Shown: one piece after another, positions 24,524 to 58,338 of the stretch
Numbering within the stretch: position 1 is the first letter of the stretch
Layout of the letters: each line of letters begins with the position of its first letter
Origin: Carettochelys insculpta
Lineage: Eukaryota; Chordata; Testudines; Carettochelyidae
Direction: 5' to 3'
Length of the DNA stretch: 64,000 nt
Assembly: GCF_033958435.1 (NCBI RefSeq)
Contig: NC_134138.1
Location: 267,011,798-267,075,797 of the forward strand
The notes under the pieces: generated by a model
Database searches by the model: none
Seen by the model: only the letters and a program-made list of their open reading frames with translations
What the model was told of the DNA's origin: nothing
Program-made: the position numbers and the translations under genes

Positions 24524-24894
24524 TACCTAAAAGGTTGGTACAAGGAGGGAGAAAAATTATTCTTCTTAATTTATGATATGACAAGAAGCAAAGGGCTTAA
24601 CTTGCAGCAAGGGAAATTTAGGTTGGACATTAGGAAACACTTCCTAACTGTCTGGGTGGAATAAATTGCCTAGGGATGTGGAATCTCCATCATTGGAGAT
24701 CTTTAAAAGGAGGATAGACAAACATCTATCAGCAATGATCTAGATGGTGCTTGGTTGTGCTGTGAGTGTAGGGGACTGGACTTAACTACCTCTCAAGGTC
24801 CCTTCCAGTTCTAGTATTCTGCGATAATTTTTGAGATGAGTTTGGGCCCATCTATGAGTGCATCAACCAGACCATCCCACACAAGCTTTCCTAT

Positions 24895-25103
24895 AGAGCA
24901 ACGAAGGGTCCTGTGGCACCTTATAGACTAACAGAAAAGTTTAGAGCATGAGCTTTCGTGAGTTAACTCACTTCTTCAGATGCTGCTGAAGTTAAGTGAG
25001 TTAACTCACGAAAGCTCATGCTCTAAACTTTTCTGTTAGTCTATAAGGTGCCACAGGACCCTTCGTTGCTCTACAGATCCAGACTAACACGGCTACCCCT
25101 CTG
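24895..25103. mobile_element. Palindromic Penelope-like unit with 12-bp duplication
   Basis: Two arms of about 85 bp, 24897-24979 and 24986-25075, are inverted and nearly identical, running from 'gagcaacgaagggtcctgtg' to 'ttcttcag'. The right side adds 'agactaacacggctacccc'. A perfect 12-bp direct repeat aagctttcctat flanks the unit (24883-24894 and 25104-25115). The arm identity implies a recent insertion. It lies just beyond the tail of the old CR1. Confidence 0.82.
24945..24984 (-). ncRNA. Hammerhead-like ribozyme motif, intact core
   Basis: Minus strand: AGCAT, core CTGAAGA (24979-24973), an extra A, hairpin GTGAG-TTAA-CTCAC, GAAA (24957-24954), palindrome AGCT, then C and ATGCT. AGCAT and ATGCT pair over 5 bp as stem I. 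Stem III would be only AGCT, self-complementary, so a dimer is implied. The plus-strand arm has a broken core (CTGAAGT at 24986). Confidence 0.55.
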
Positions 25104-42051: not shown

Positions 42052-42221
42052 TTCTTCTTCGAGTGTCCCTGTGGGTGCTCCACGTTAGGTGTTGGGCTCG
42101 CCCCGGCGGCGCAGGTCGGATCTTCCAAGCAGTTTCTGCCGGACCGCGCATGCACCGGTGCGCGCCGCTCCCTTGCGCGCTCCCGGCCACGTGCGCTATC
42201 CGGTCCCCGCCAGTTCCTCTT
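42052..42221 (+). repeat. DIRS left inverted terminal repeat
   Basis: Begins TTCTTCTTCGAGTGTCC and is inverted relative to about 47855-48024. Similarity ends after 'ccagttcct'. It lacks the 33-bp outer extension present at the right end. The region is GC-rich and may contain the promoter. Confidence 0.88.
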
Positions 42222-42522
42222 TAACCGCCATCGGCTGCAGACGGAATCCGCTCAGGCTACGGCCAGAGTTAGCGTTTTTAATTGTTTTAAAGTTTCTTCA
42301 GTCTTAGATTAAGTTAGTCGGCTGCTGTTTTCAAAAAAAAAAAAACCAAACAAACAAAGAAAGGAAAGGAATTCAAAGCTTCCAATCCTAGTAACAAGCG
42401 GAGCACCAGAGGCCAGGAGCCTAGGGCCATTAGCTCTCCTGCCGCGGCAGGCTTTATCTGAGAGGGGAACAAGCACAGAAAAGGTGCTAAGTACCCTATT
42501 AACAACTCAAAGACTCACCACA
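42222..42522 (+). other. DIRS 5' leader
   Basis: Non-coding leader between the terminal repeat and the gag start. It contains an A-rich run at about 42333-42352 (A with CAAACAAACAAAG), similar in composition to the insertion at 45310-45330. Confidence 0.6.
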
Positions 42523-44856
42523 ATGTCCTCTTCAGGATTCAAGAAGTGTGAGTCGTGCCGCGAGACGATGCCAGCGTCTGATGGGCACAGTCAGTGCATA
42601 AGGTGCTTGGGGGAATCCCATGTCACTCAGAAATGTTCCTTCTGCGCCAAGTTAACAGCCAGAGCAAGGAAGGACGGGGAAATGCAGCTGAAAATGCCGC
42701 TGTTCGACAAGGCCCTCCAGCCAGACGTGCTGGAGCGGCCGCAGCAGGAAGGACCCTCCGGGGCCCATAAAAGGAAAGCCGCGTCCCTAACCCCATCAGT
42801 GCAAAAACGGAGGAAAATCTCCCCAACCCAATCCCTGCCGGCAGCAACAGCGAGCGGGATGGGTGGAGCGCACAGCCCCCAGCCGCAGCTACAGCTGATC
42901 GGTGGCGGCGCGAAGACGCACGTGGCGGAGGTTCAGCCTCCAATGATCAAACAGCTGCCCCGCACTGCGGGCAGGACGGCGGCCAAGCAAGCGCCGGAAC
43001 CAGCGGCACCGCAAACAGCGGCACCGAGCCCCGGGGAACCGGCGGCGCAGAGCGCACAGGCACGCGGCCTGCAGGCACCGGGGGAGACCGCCCGCGCGGC
43101 ACAGCTGAGGAGCGTGACGAGCGCGGTGCAGACTACGGGGCCGAGATCCCTGACGCGTCAGGGGGCAGAGCCACCCCCACAGGGGAGGGGAAAGGCAGCA
43201 CAGAAAACACGGCACCGCAGTCCCTCTCCATACAGGGCTGCAGAGCTGCTTTCTCTGAGCCCTCCGCTCGTGCTGCGGACTCCAACGAGAAGGCAGGGGT
43301 CACCCCTAGCCTATCCGGAGCCCTCATCTCCATTTCTACAGCCAGCCTCCCCATGGCTTGAACCACCTTCGCTCTTCTTGGGCTTCGAGCCACTTGAGTA
43401 CTATCACAAATCGGTTTCTCAAGCGTTCCAGGTCTCCAGAAGATCTCGCTCCCCCAGACGTAGGGGGTGTGCACCAAGGGAGTGGTCCAGGTCACCATCC
43501 CAGGAGCAGTGCCTGTGTTGCCATGGTCACCCCTATCATGCGGGGCATAGACACCATAGGCATACTACCAGGGACAGATCCCCACAGATGGTTCCGTATC
43601 CCCGAGGGCAATCGTGAACGGGGACAGAGACTCAGATATCCCAGGGGGAGTTGGTTCTGGAACCCCGGGATTTTCCCTCGCAAGCTTCCAGCGAGCGGAT
43701 GTACCACCGTCAACAGGACCCGGAGGGGTTGAGAGAGGCGTGCCCTAGCGGTTCCTTGTTGTCCTCCCCAGATGAGGCTACGGCCCCGGGGGACGTCCAT
43801 CCTCTGGACGATCTCAAACAGTTCCAAGAACTGTTTAAAAGCGTGGCCTTCACGCAAGGCATCCAGACAGCAGAGGTGCAAGAGAAGCACCATAAGCTCC
43901 TTAAAAATCTGAGACCTCCGGCCTCCTCTAAAATAGCCATACCGCTTGACGAAGCAATCTTGGAGTCCGCCACCATGATATGGCAGACCCCTGCGACTAT
44001 TCCGCCTGTCCACAAGAGAGCAGACAAGAAATACTTCGTGCTGGTGAAGGGCATGGAGTTCCTATTCAGCCACCCGCAACCAAATTCTCTGGTGGTAGAA
44101 TCGTCTCAACAGAGATCAAAAATGTCTCAGTTCAAAACAGAGGGAACGGACAAAGATGCCAAGAAGCTAGAGCTGTTCGGCAGAAAGGTCTACTCCTCCT
44201 CCACCCTACTGTTGAGAATGGCGAATTACACAGCGCATCTAGCGAACCACAATTTCGACAACTACTCTAGGTTAACCTCTCTCATGGACTCGCTTCCAGA
44301 GGACAAGAAGCCGGTGCTCAAGGCAATCGTGCAAGAAGACTACGCGGCCTCGAGGACAGGAGTTCAGATCGCCCTAGTCGTAGCGGATACGGCAGCACGC
44401 TCAACAGCTACGGCAGTGGTCATGAGCAGGGAGTCCTGGCTCCAGACATCGGGTATCCCGAGGGATATGCAGGCGAAGATCGTTGATCTCCCCTTTGACA
44501 CGCAGAAGCTGTTTGCAGTATCAACCACAGCAGTCCCAGTACCACAGGGGCTACAAGCAAGGGCGACATCAACAGCACCAACAGTACAGAACTCCCAGGC
44601 GACGTTCTCAACAGAGCCGTGCGTCCTCGGGGCAGGGCCAAAGGCCACAAGTTTGACACACAGATCGAGGGCTGCACTATCGCTACCATTGCGCAATGTC
44701 ATCCGAAGCTACTGTTCCACCTTCGCCTCCGACCATTCTACGACCAGTGGCAAAAGATCACCACAGACAAATGTGTACTGGAGATCATGGCCACGGGTTA
44801 CGCGATTCCCTTCCAGTTGCTCCCACCGCCACGACCTCCACCCAGACCCCACCTAA
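42523..44856 (+). pseudogene. DIRS gag-like protein, one premature stop
   Basis: The ATG at 42523 starts a frame of about 777 codons to a stop at 44854-44856, interrupted only by an in-frame TGA at 43615-43617. Residues 8-60 hold a cysteine-rich head: C-x2-C, 'ETMPASDGHSQC', 'CLGESH', C-x2-C. A long proline- and alanine-rich middle (to about residue 270) and an arginine/serine-rich stretch near residues 320-345 ('RRSRSPRRRG') follow, then a conserved C-terminal domain from 43790 ('DDLKQFQELFKS'). The role is presumed nucleic-acid packaging. The end overlaps the RT frame by about 240 bp, as is usual for DIRS. Confidence 0.82.
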
Positions 44857-46547
44857 AGGACGCCTCCCACGAAGCAAGACTCAAGCAGGAGGTAGGCCAT
44901 CTTATGCTTGTAGGGGCAGTGGAAAGAGTGCCAGAGCAACTCCGAGGGAAAGGGTTCTACTCAAGATACTTCCTCACAGAGAAAGAGACAGGAGGCTGGA
45001 GGCCCAGCCTAGATCTTCGTCAACCGGTACTTGCGCAAGCAACGCTTTCAGATGATCACAGTTGCCTCTATACTTACGGCACTGGACGATGGAGATTGGT
45101 TCGCAGCCCTCGACTTACAAGACGCGTATTTCCACATAACTATTCACCCGGCTCACAGGCGTTTTCTCTGGGTTATGGTAGGCAAAGAACATTTTCAGTA
45201 CAAGGTTCTGCCGTTCGGCCTCTCCTCGGCCCCCAGAGTCTTCACCAAGACCTTGGCAGTGGTGTCAGCCTACCTGCACAGACAGGGGGTGTTTATATTC
45301 CCATATCTGAAAAAAAAACAAACAAAAAAATGACTGCCTACTGAAAGGGGCCTCGACGGAGGAGGTACTTCGCATGATACGTGTCACAGCAGTCACGTTC
45401 TCTTTGCTGGGCCTGGTCATCAATCTGGCAAAATCAAAGATAGACCCCGCACAGGACATAGAGTTCATAGGGGCACGTATAAATTCCATCACAGCACGGG
45501 TTTATCTACCAGATGCCTGCTTTCGTGCCATTGGTTCCCTCGTGCAAGTCATCACCTTCAGCCCTACAGTGCCGGTTCTGATGTGCTTACAGCTGCTGGG
45601 CCACATGGCAGCAGCAACGTTTGTGGTACAGAATGCCCGATTGCATAGGCGCAGCATGCAGCACTGGCTGGTGAGCGTCTACAAACTGGCAGCACACACT
45701 GTCCACAGGGTGGTGTCGCCCACAACAGAGGTGCGCAGATCCCTGCAATGGTGGGTGAACCCCAAGAACATGCTAACAGGGGTGCCCTTTCACCAACCAC
45801 AAATATCTGTTTTTCTCACTACCGACACCTCCCACATAGGGTGGGGAGCACACATGGGCGAAAAGGTGATGCAAAGACTATGGTCCTCCACGGAACAATC
45901 ACTGCACATAAATATACTGGAGCTCAGAGCAGTGTTCAATGCCTGCAAACACTTTCGAGACCATATACAAGGCAAGTAGTCGGGATCAGTACAGACAATA
46001 CCTCCACCATGTTTATATAAATCAGCAAGGAGGAGCTCGGTCCCGTGCCTTACGTGCGGAAGCAGTCCGATTGTGGAACTGGTGCATCGCCAACAATATA
46101 ACCTTGAAAGCCTCATATTTACCAGGCACTCACAATGTGAAGGCAGACCAGCTGAGCGGGTGCTTCACACTCACACACGAGTGGCAGATCCGTTCCGATC
46201 TGCTACGACCGATTTTTCACGCATGGGGTTTTCCCCGGGTAGACCTGTTTGCCACTCAACACAACAAGAAGTGCCCACAATACTGCTCCAGGGCAGGACT
46301 GGGATGGGGGTCCCTGGGGGATGCATTCGCGATCTCGTGGAGGGGCCCCCTGCTCTACACCTTTACTCCCACAGTGCTTATCCACAAAGTCTTGCAGAAA
46401 GCCAGGAGAGGGAAAGCCCGAACGATCCTAGTAGTCCCAATGTGGGATCGACAGCAATGGTTCCCCTTACTCCTGCGCATGTCGGACCGTCCACCGATGC
46501 CCCTCCCGGTTGCGCCGGATCTGCTCACGCAGCCCAGGGGTCCATAG
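44619..46547 (+). pseudogene. DIRS reverse transcriptase-RNase H, disrupted
   Basis: The RT begins in an overlapping frame (fingers near 44880-45010, 'LKQEVGHLMLVGAVERV', 'GGWRPSLDLR'). After a frameshift near 45018 the palm follows ('FAALDLQDAYFHI', 'VLPFGLSSAPRVFTK'). At 45298-45309 the frame reads F-P-Y-L, where the catalytic aspartates should follow, but an A-rich tract at 45310-45330 interrupts them. The thumb resumes at 45374. RNase H motifs are 'TTDTSHIGWGAH' (45820-45855), 'ILELRAV' (45920) and 'TDNTS' (45990). Two more frameshifts lie near 45975 and 46017. A conserved post-RNase H domain ('PRVDLFATQHNKKCPQY', 46236 on) ends at 46547; some DIRS have a methyltransferase here, but I see no DPPY-type motif. 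Confidence 0.88.
45310..45330 (+). repeat. A-rich insertion at the RT active site
   Basis: Twenty-one bases of A with two C interruptions sit exactly between the codons for F-P-Y-L and the rest of the palm. They replace or displace the catalytic aspartate codons and create a stop at 45331. There are no flanking duplications beyond the A run. Confidence 0.85.
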
Positions 46548-46581
46548 TGCATCCACACCCCCAAGGCCTGCGACTGCAAGC

Positions 46582-47636
46582 ATGGTTAATCCATGGCTCA
46601 GCTCCCTAGAGAGCACGCATATGGAGGGAGTGCAACAAGTCCTAGAAAGTAGCAGGAGGACTTCCACCAGGAAGCCCTATAAGCAAATATGGACTCGATT
46701 CACTGCATGGTGTTCTACCAAGCAATTAGCCCCCCTTGCTGCGCATATACCTGTAATACTAGAGTAATTACTGGACCTCAAGAGAGGCGGACTCTACCTA
46801 TCCTCGTTGAAGGGTCCACCTTGCCGCTATATCGGCTTTCAGACATGAAGAGGAAGGGCACACGGTGTTTGCCCCTCCCATGGTTACCAGGTTCCTCAAA
46901 GGGCTGGTAAACCTATACCCCCCTCGGAAACCACTTCCACCTTCGTGGAGCTTGGACCTTGTGCTTAATGCGCTAACGGGACCACCGTTTGAACCCTTAG
47001 CCACGGTTTCCCTCCGTCTCCTTACGATAAAGACGACCTTCCTTCTTGCAATCACGTCAGCTCGCAGGGTGAGCGAGCTTGCGGCAGTCATGGCAACGCC
47101 ACCCTGCACAGTAATTTCCAAGGAGGCGGTAACCTTATGGCTGCATCCAGCCTTTGTTCCCAAAGTTTCTTCAGAGTTTCATATTAACAAACCTATAGTT
47201 TTACCCTCGTTATCCAAAGCCTCATAACTCCAACAAAGAGGCGCGCCTACACCTCCTGGACGTGAGGAGGGCGCTGGCTTTCTATATAGACAGGACTAAG
47301 TCCTTCCGGAAAATGGATAGACACCTAGTCTCTCTCGCTCCCAAATCAAAAGGAGAAGGTCTCTCTTCGCAGAGAATCTCGAAGCACATCGTATCCTGCA
47401 TAAAAATGTGCTACGAACTCAAAATGACTCCTTTACTGGCCACGCCCAGGGCTCACTCCACTAGGGTGGTGGCGGCATCAACAGCCTTTTTCAAGGGCGT
47501 TGCGCTAAAAGACATTTGCAGAGCGGCGACCTGGTCATCCTATGACACCTTCGCCAAGCACTACACCCTTCACAGGGTATGCCAAGAGGATACCCAGCTC
47601 TCAACAGCGGTCCTCTCGGGGACAAGCTGCACATGA
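46582..47636 (+). pseudogene. DIRS tyrosine recombinase, frameshifted
   Basis: An ATG at 46582 starts the N-terminal core-binding domain ('STRKPYKQIWTRFTAW'). A TAA at about 46765-46767 and a frameshift near 46812 separate it from the catalytic domain, and a second shift lies near 47215. Catalytic residues of the tyrosine recombinase family are all present: arginine in 'TSARRVSEL' (47063-47068), H-x2-R in 'PRAHSTRVVAAS' (47454-47465), tryptophan in 'AATWSSYDTF' (47532), and the nucleophile tyrosine in 'FAKHYTLH' (47562-47564). The protein would integrate the circular DNA. The start upstream of 46582 is uncertain because the RT frame overlaps. Confidence 0.88.
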
Positions 47637-47677
47637 TCCGATTACCCATCTCCTATTTTGGGTTACTGCTGGGTAGT

Positions 47678-47778
47678 CACCTAATGTGGAGCACCCACGG
47701 AGACACTCGAAGAAGAAAGAGAAGTTACTCACCGTAGTAACGGTGGTTCTTCGAGATGTGTCCCCGTGGGTGCTCCAC
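47678..47778 (+). repeat. DIRS internal complementary region
   Basis: 47678-47717 is the reverse complement of the left outer end (42052-42091; 37 of 40 bases). 47715-47778 is the exact reverse complement of the right outer end (47983-48046; 64 of 64 bases). The two halves overlap by GAA at 47715-47717, the complement of the TTC at both outer ends. In DIRS this region is the template that lets the ends be joined into a circle. Confidence 0.92.
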
Positions 47779-47854
47779 CACCCGCCCATCCTCCCCGCTT
47801 CGGATCTCTGTCTAGTGTTTTGCAGGAGCATCCGAGGCAGTTGGTCAAGGAACT

Positions 47855-48046
47855 GGTGGGGACCGGATCGCGCACGTGGCCAGGAGCGCGCAAGGGAGCG
47901 GCGCGCATCAGCGCATGCGCGGTCCAGCAGAAACTGCTTGGAAGATCTGACCTGCGGCGCCGGGGCGAGCCCGACACCTAACGTGGAGCACCCACGGGGA
48001 CACATCTCGAAGAACCACCGTTACTACGGTGAGTAACTTCTCTTTC
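47855..48046 (-). repeat. DIRS right inverted terminal repeat with outer extension
   Basis: Inverted copy of the left terminus, with an extra outer stretch of about 33 bp that reads on the minus strand GAAAGAGAAGTTACTCACCG and onward. This extension is absent from the left end but present in the internal complementary region. Confidence 0.9.
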
Positions 48047-57722: not shown

Positions 57723-57841
57723 TACAGGTTGAACCTCTCTCATCTGGCACCCTCAGGATCTGACTGTTGCTGGACAAGAGAATTTGCTGGATCACAGGAG
57801 CTCATTACCAACAAACACTTCCACTGTTTACTGGGCTCTTA

Positions 57842-58274
57842 GGCCGTGTCTACACTAGCCCCAAACTTCGAAATGGCCACGCAAATGGCCATTTCGAAGT
57901 TTACTAATGAAGCGCTGAAATGCATATTCAGCACTTCATTGGCGTGAGGGCGGCTGCGGCACTTCGAAATTGACACGCCTCGCCGCCGGGCGGCTCGTCC
58001 TGCTGGGGCTCCTTTTCAAAAGGACCCTGCCTACTTCGAAGTCTCCTTATTCCGATGAGCTGATGGGAATAAGGGGACTTTGAAGTAGGCGGGGTCCTTT
58101 CGAAAAGGAGCCCCGTCGGGACGAGCCGCTTGGCAGCGAGGCGTGTCAATTTCGAAGTGCCGCGGCCCGCTTGCTAATGAAGCACTGAATATGCATTTCA
58201 GCGCTTCATTAGTAAACTTCGAAATGGCCATTTGCGTGGCCATTTCAAAGTTTGGGGCTAGTGTAGATGTAGCC
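57842..58274 (+). mobile_element. Palindromic MITE (PIF/Harbinger-like) with TTA duplication
   Basis: The ends are GGCCGTGTCTACACTAGCCC and, reversed, GGCTACATCTACACTAGCCC. TTA flanks both sides (57839-57841, 58275-58277), the Harbinger signature. Arms of about 200 bp fold back on each other through 'gaaatggccatttgcgtggc', 'gcttcattagtaaacttcg' and 'tcgaaaaggagcccc' blocks. 433 bp, CpG-rich, non-coding. Confidence 0.88.
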
Positions 58275-58277
58275 TTA

Positions 58278-58338
58278 GAGTGCTACATTTCTGCTGTTTT
58301 GTTTTGTTAAAATAGAGACTAACACAGCTACCTCTCTG
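58278..58338 (+). mobile_element. Penelope-like stub with 13-bp duplication
   Basis: 'agactaacacagctacctct' is the PLE terminal sequence also seen at 25081. The flanks ttactgggctctt (57828-57840) and ttattgggctctt (58339-58351) form a 13-bp duplication with one mismatch once the MITE is taken out, showing the PLE stub landed first and the MITE later. Confidence 0.72.

Follow-up and report, generated by a model that had tools for sequence, protein, structure and literature searches.

How well-matched ends come to enclose broken genes is the question raised by a DIRS1-like retrotransposon that spans positions 42052-48046 of the window, the whole 64,000-nt stretch of Carettochelys insculpta DNA analysed here. 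The preliminary description had contrasted young ends with old genes, and offered as explanations mobilisation by another element's proteins or renewal of the ends during circularisation. The copy is ordinary for a known retrotransposon type, dead though fairly young, and is very probably best explained by a fairly recent insertion in the turtle followed by neutral decay.

The unit is 5995 bp long and both of its tips read TTC. The left inverted terminal repeat (ITR) (42052-42218, positive strand) starts with this trinucleotide and has its inverted match at 47848-48014, the right ITR on the negative strand; the arms are 90% complementary over their full 172 nt, and an ungapped comparison over 42064-42218 gives 144 identical positions of 155, with CpG transitions making up 8 of the 11 differences. 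Beyond the right ITR lies a right extension of about 30 nt (48015-48046, positive strand), ending in TTC and complementary only to the internal complementary region (ICR), to its right half, as in DIRS1-like elements. The ICR occupies 47678-47778, and its two halves, both on the positive strand, share a GAA at 47715-47717 that constitutes the 3-bp junction: the left half (47678-47717) is complementary to the left end at 37 of 40 positions, and the right half (47715-47778) to the right end (47983-48046) at 64 of 64. The terminal TTC at 42052-42054 and 48044-48046 is complementary to this circular junction GAA. Near the tip a short offset distinguishes the two element ends, and the version found at each end recurs in the corresponding ICR half. 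Four occurrences of a 21-mer end motif, allowing up to 3 mismatches, were found in the window, all inside 42052-48046, with none in 100 shuffles. The unit with its terminal repeats, three coding regions and ICR is therefore present as first described, as is the uninterrupted right-half match; the phrase "nearly perfect ends" suits that half, but not the left half or the ITRs.

A PAT/Ngaro layout, with split direct repeats in the order A1-B1-A2-B2, was rejected, the long terminal repeats being inverted; the direct repeat pairs of 40 and 37 nt (81-83%) within the element are there because of the ICR. In the flanking sequence inspected, no obvious repeat was seen that would suggest a target-site duplication. 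Exact end motifs gave no matches in viral and prokaryotic collections, as expected because the element is a turtle one. Two other inverted structures were observed in the window: at 57836-58280, 122-nt arms (89%) surround 108-nt arms (88%) without a gap, nested repeats that resemble a palindromic mobile element, and at 24891-25076 an 83-nt inverted repeat is 99% complementary with 20 nt between its arms.

Gene order in the unit is gag, RT-RNaseH-methyltransferase and tyrosine recombinase (YR), as in DIRS1-like elements, with all three genes on the positive strand and all three broken. The gag gene (ORF1; 42523-44518), with a LAP2alpha match above the curated score (E 9.8e-07), is interrupted by a stop and a deletion, and its C-terminal remainder lies in another frame at 44519-44656, where it aligns with the C-terminal part of gene model P0001, a sister copy from the same host. 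The pol gene (ORF2; 44610-46547), encoding RT, RNase H and a Dam-like methyltransferase, was assigned from domain matches and alignments: one piece matches RVT_1 above the curated score (E 2.5e-08), while a second matches RNase H (E 2.9e-04) and a third weakly matches Dam (E 0.0067), both under the curated score; a 222-aa RT-RNaseH piece had no match in the protein search. The YR gene (ORF3; 46552-47636) was recognized by alignment to retroelement proteins and by an HSTR motif at 47454, a motif named in PMC3266345. Its pieces have no Phage_integrase match of their own, two pieces searched against Pfam and NCBIfam, and one against the PDB, giving nothing credible. Among the retroelement proteins to which they align, three of five scanned have a weak Phage_integrase match, the best of these at E 2.2e-04, under the curated score.

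Nine lesions were counted in these genes: seven indels that change the frame, and two stops, which lie in gag (43615-43617) and YR (46765-46767). The indels comprise a net 119-nt deletion in gag at about 44518, relative to P0001; a net 5-nt deletion in pol near 45021; an A-rich tract at 45310-45330 (positive strand), a net 19-nt insertion that splits the catalytic YLDD motif; two pol frame shifts within 45977-46013; and two YR frame shifts, near 46813 and within 47206-47229. The pair at 45977-46013 was counted as two by eye, a short middle stretch making sense in a third frame; alignments give only the net effect there, so the indel total may be six. Lesions reported earlier as one stop, about five frameshifts and an A-rich insertion are real but were under-counted, and the 119-nt gag deletion had been missed. 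The A-rich insertion was considered as a copy of the leader tract of the element itself, an idea abandoned because A-rich tracts are not confined to the element (nine in the window under a looser rule, two of them inside it). Pure A/C tracts of at least 19 nt and at least 80% A number two over both strands of the window, at 42332-42358 and 45310-45330, both in the element.

Among known systems, AcDIRS2 of Anolis is nearly equal in dimensions, with 5997 bp, ICR 39-60 and rE 28 in Table 3 of PMC3266345 against 5995 bp, ICR 40-64 and a right extension of about 30 here. The portions of that paper relevant here cover the DIRS1-like AcDIRS1 and AcDIRS2 of Anolis and list the tortoise Gopherus agassizii as an earlier host. 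The present copy resembles the Sauropsida DIRS1-like elements described in them in size, ITR-ICR-right extension layout, 3-bp circular junction and gene order, and differs in its TTC/TTC trinucleotides, its GAA junction and its broken genes. Passages of PMC4495291 identify the gag of painted and soft-shell turtle DIRS1-like elements as the source of the LAP2alpha domain, and count 792 painted-turtle regions with LAP2alpha homology, with a DIRS1-type RT in 642 cases; like the elements in those passages, this copy has a gag matching LAP2alpha, and the proteins closest to its pieces come from turtles. Xenopus DIRS are treated in part of PMC9210276, and "DIRS" has no occurrences in the main text of the Carettochelys genome paper (PMC10960847).

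In the published model, the transcript would lack the outermost ends, the ICR would serve as template for them during reverse transcription, and joining at the 3-bp junction would turn the cDNA into a circle, which the tyrosine recombinase would then integrate without target-site duplication; the role of the ICR as template in DIRS replication is described in sections of PMC3266345 and PMC5633606. Renewal of the ends during circularisation, the other option raised in the preliminary description, agrees with this model and fits the end-specific signatures of the ICR halves. Since the ends of each new copy would match its own ICR, the match should measure the time since last transposition; a recent copy should show such a match whether or not it is autonomous, and the match is silent on whose proteins moved this one. 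As the conserved part of the ITR is characterized as strictly complementary in a passage of PMC3266345, ITR divergence should also date from insertion.

With CpG sites handled apart from other sites, the ICR differs from the ends at 3 of 104 positions (1 of 90 non-CpG) and the ITRs from each other at 11 of 155 (3 of 107 non-CpG), two sets that both use 42064-42091 and are hence not fully independent. These counts correspond to non-CpG substitutions per copy of 0.56% (95% interval 0.014-3.1%) from the ICR alone and 1.0% (0.28-2.6%) when pooled. The end-derived age predicts 1.75-2.65 stops, and two are seen. An indel:substitution ratio of 0.08-0.12, typical of vertebrates, was assumed for the indels, predicting 2.3-3.4 from the ICR and 4.2-6.2 from the pooled estimate, and seven are seen. 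If ends and genes were equally old, so few end differences would have a probability of 0.24-0.43 (ICR) or 0.30-0.56 (pooled) at these ratios, and of 0.66 and 0.84 at a ratio of 0.2; at a ratio of 0.04 the values fall to 0.051 and 0.044, a marginal indel excess. The two 10-kb flanks have CpG observed/expected ratios of 0.16 and 0.31. The three coding stretches lie well above this, at 0.60-0.70, and both ITRs reach 1.09, so that genes and ends alike look young.

Conserved residues were compared as well. Of the 70 RT columns at which 18 relatives agree, four are changed in this copy where 1.3-2.1 would be expected (P 0.047 and 0.16), and leaving out each relative in turn gives 0-6 changes of 75-81 columns. 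Three turtle pol proteins agree at 270 columns, and at 47 of these this copy has a different residue. Pairwise, using columns common to two of the three and the same references for both copies, this copy shows 78/325 changes vs 58/343 in P0029, 67/313 vs 51/336 in P0030, and 92/383 vs 120/405 in P0031, a comparison that is weak because P0029 and P0030 belong to one species. Together these results hold scattered hints, without a solid sign, that the genes are older than the ends, and the proposed contrast of young ends and old genes is not clearly upheld: the stops fit the end-derived age, and the indel excess is non-significant at ratios of at least 0.08.

Sister copies bear on when the lesions arose. 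P0001, a Carettochelys insculpta gene model, aligns with the gag piece at 43618-44856 at 88% identity over 74% of the piece, and another model from this species, P0025, does so at 82% over 26%. A search with this piece returned 28 matches, the seven ranked next after P0001 all being Pelodiscus proteins at only 53-58% identity; the best Pelodiscus proteins are likewise only 54-55% identical to pol. P0001 has an amino acid at the place of the gag stop and retains the 40 residues lost here to the 119-nt deletion, and P0025 also keeps the deleted stretch, the last part in another frame; P0025 stops short just before the site of the 5-nt deletion, which may be a true stop or the limit of the gene model. 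Two of the nine lesions could thus be compared with same-host copies, and both are absent from the copies that cover them. The comparison shows that the two gag lesions are not ancestral to the family; it does not demonstrate an origin after this insertion, because the sisters are 9-16% diverged (of 100 shared residues, 9 in P0001 and 16 in P0025 differ from this copy). Polarised against six other turtle proteins (five from Pelodiscus, one from Chelonia) at 79 gag columns where these agree, four changes fall on this copy and four on P0001, with both unlike the outgroup at five; when the three copies from this host are compared over 100 residues, five are private to this copy, three to P0001 and ten to P0025. 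Models P0001 (OTUD6B, Carettochelys), P0014 (zinc finger Rlf, Chrysemys) and P0030 (RAD51 homolog 2, Pelodiscus) include DIRS gag or pol sequence, which may reflect either exonisation or gene-prediction artefacts.

Decay after insertion is favoured by anatomy, end-specific ICR signatures and low end divergence, all observed in this copy, and we infer that the lesions arose after insertion. Weighing against it, a closer sublineage could have carried the lesions before this insertion, since two of nine were compared, and with diverged sisters, and the seven indels exceed the point estimates at ratios of 0.08-0.12, with the marginal excess at 0.04. The strongest rival is a damaged master, broken before insertion and mobilised in trans by the proteins of an intact relative, its ends renewed at that time. 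Broken genes alongside a 64/64 right end would suit this account, as would the small surplus of indels and of conserved RT column changes, neither of them robust, and the narrow reach of the sister comparison. However, the lesion load matches the end-derived age at ratios of at least 0.08, both comparable lesions are missing from the sister copies, and the gag branch is not longer than that of P0001; mobilisation by another element's proteins is not needed to explain the copy and, while possible, is unlikely. Slightly more doubtful still is the spread in trans of a young, already-broken sublineage whose ends were rewritten from their own ICR each round.

Post-insertion gene conversion with the ICR, which would have homogenised the ends and made them look younger than the insertion, draws on the difference between the right half (0 of 64) and the left half (3 of 40; Fisher P 0.054). 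The ITRs, which lie mostly outside the ICR match, are similarly low in divergence (3/107 vs 1/90 non-CpG, Fisher P 0.63) and a 64/64 match has a probability of 0.09-0.49 at the inferred ages, making this explanation highly improbable. It is just as hard to credit that some lesions are assembly errors, an idea in keeping with several one- or few-base shifts, one of them adjoining a G run, and with the A-rich tract, as two stops and deletions of 119 and 5 nt are atypical of consensus errors.

In itself, the copy at 42052-48046 matters little. If a broken sublineage did spread in trans, a DIRS element would require nothing in cis beyond its ends and ICR. For decay after insertion, the preferred reading, the wider meaning lies in dating: in DIRS elements, the match between ICR and ends, together with that between the ITRs, could clock the last transposition much as LTR pairs do, a clock that requires CpG sites to be counted apart.
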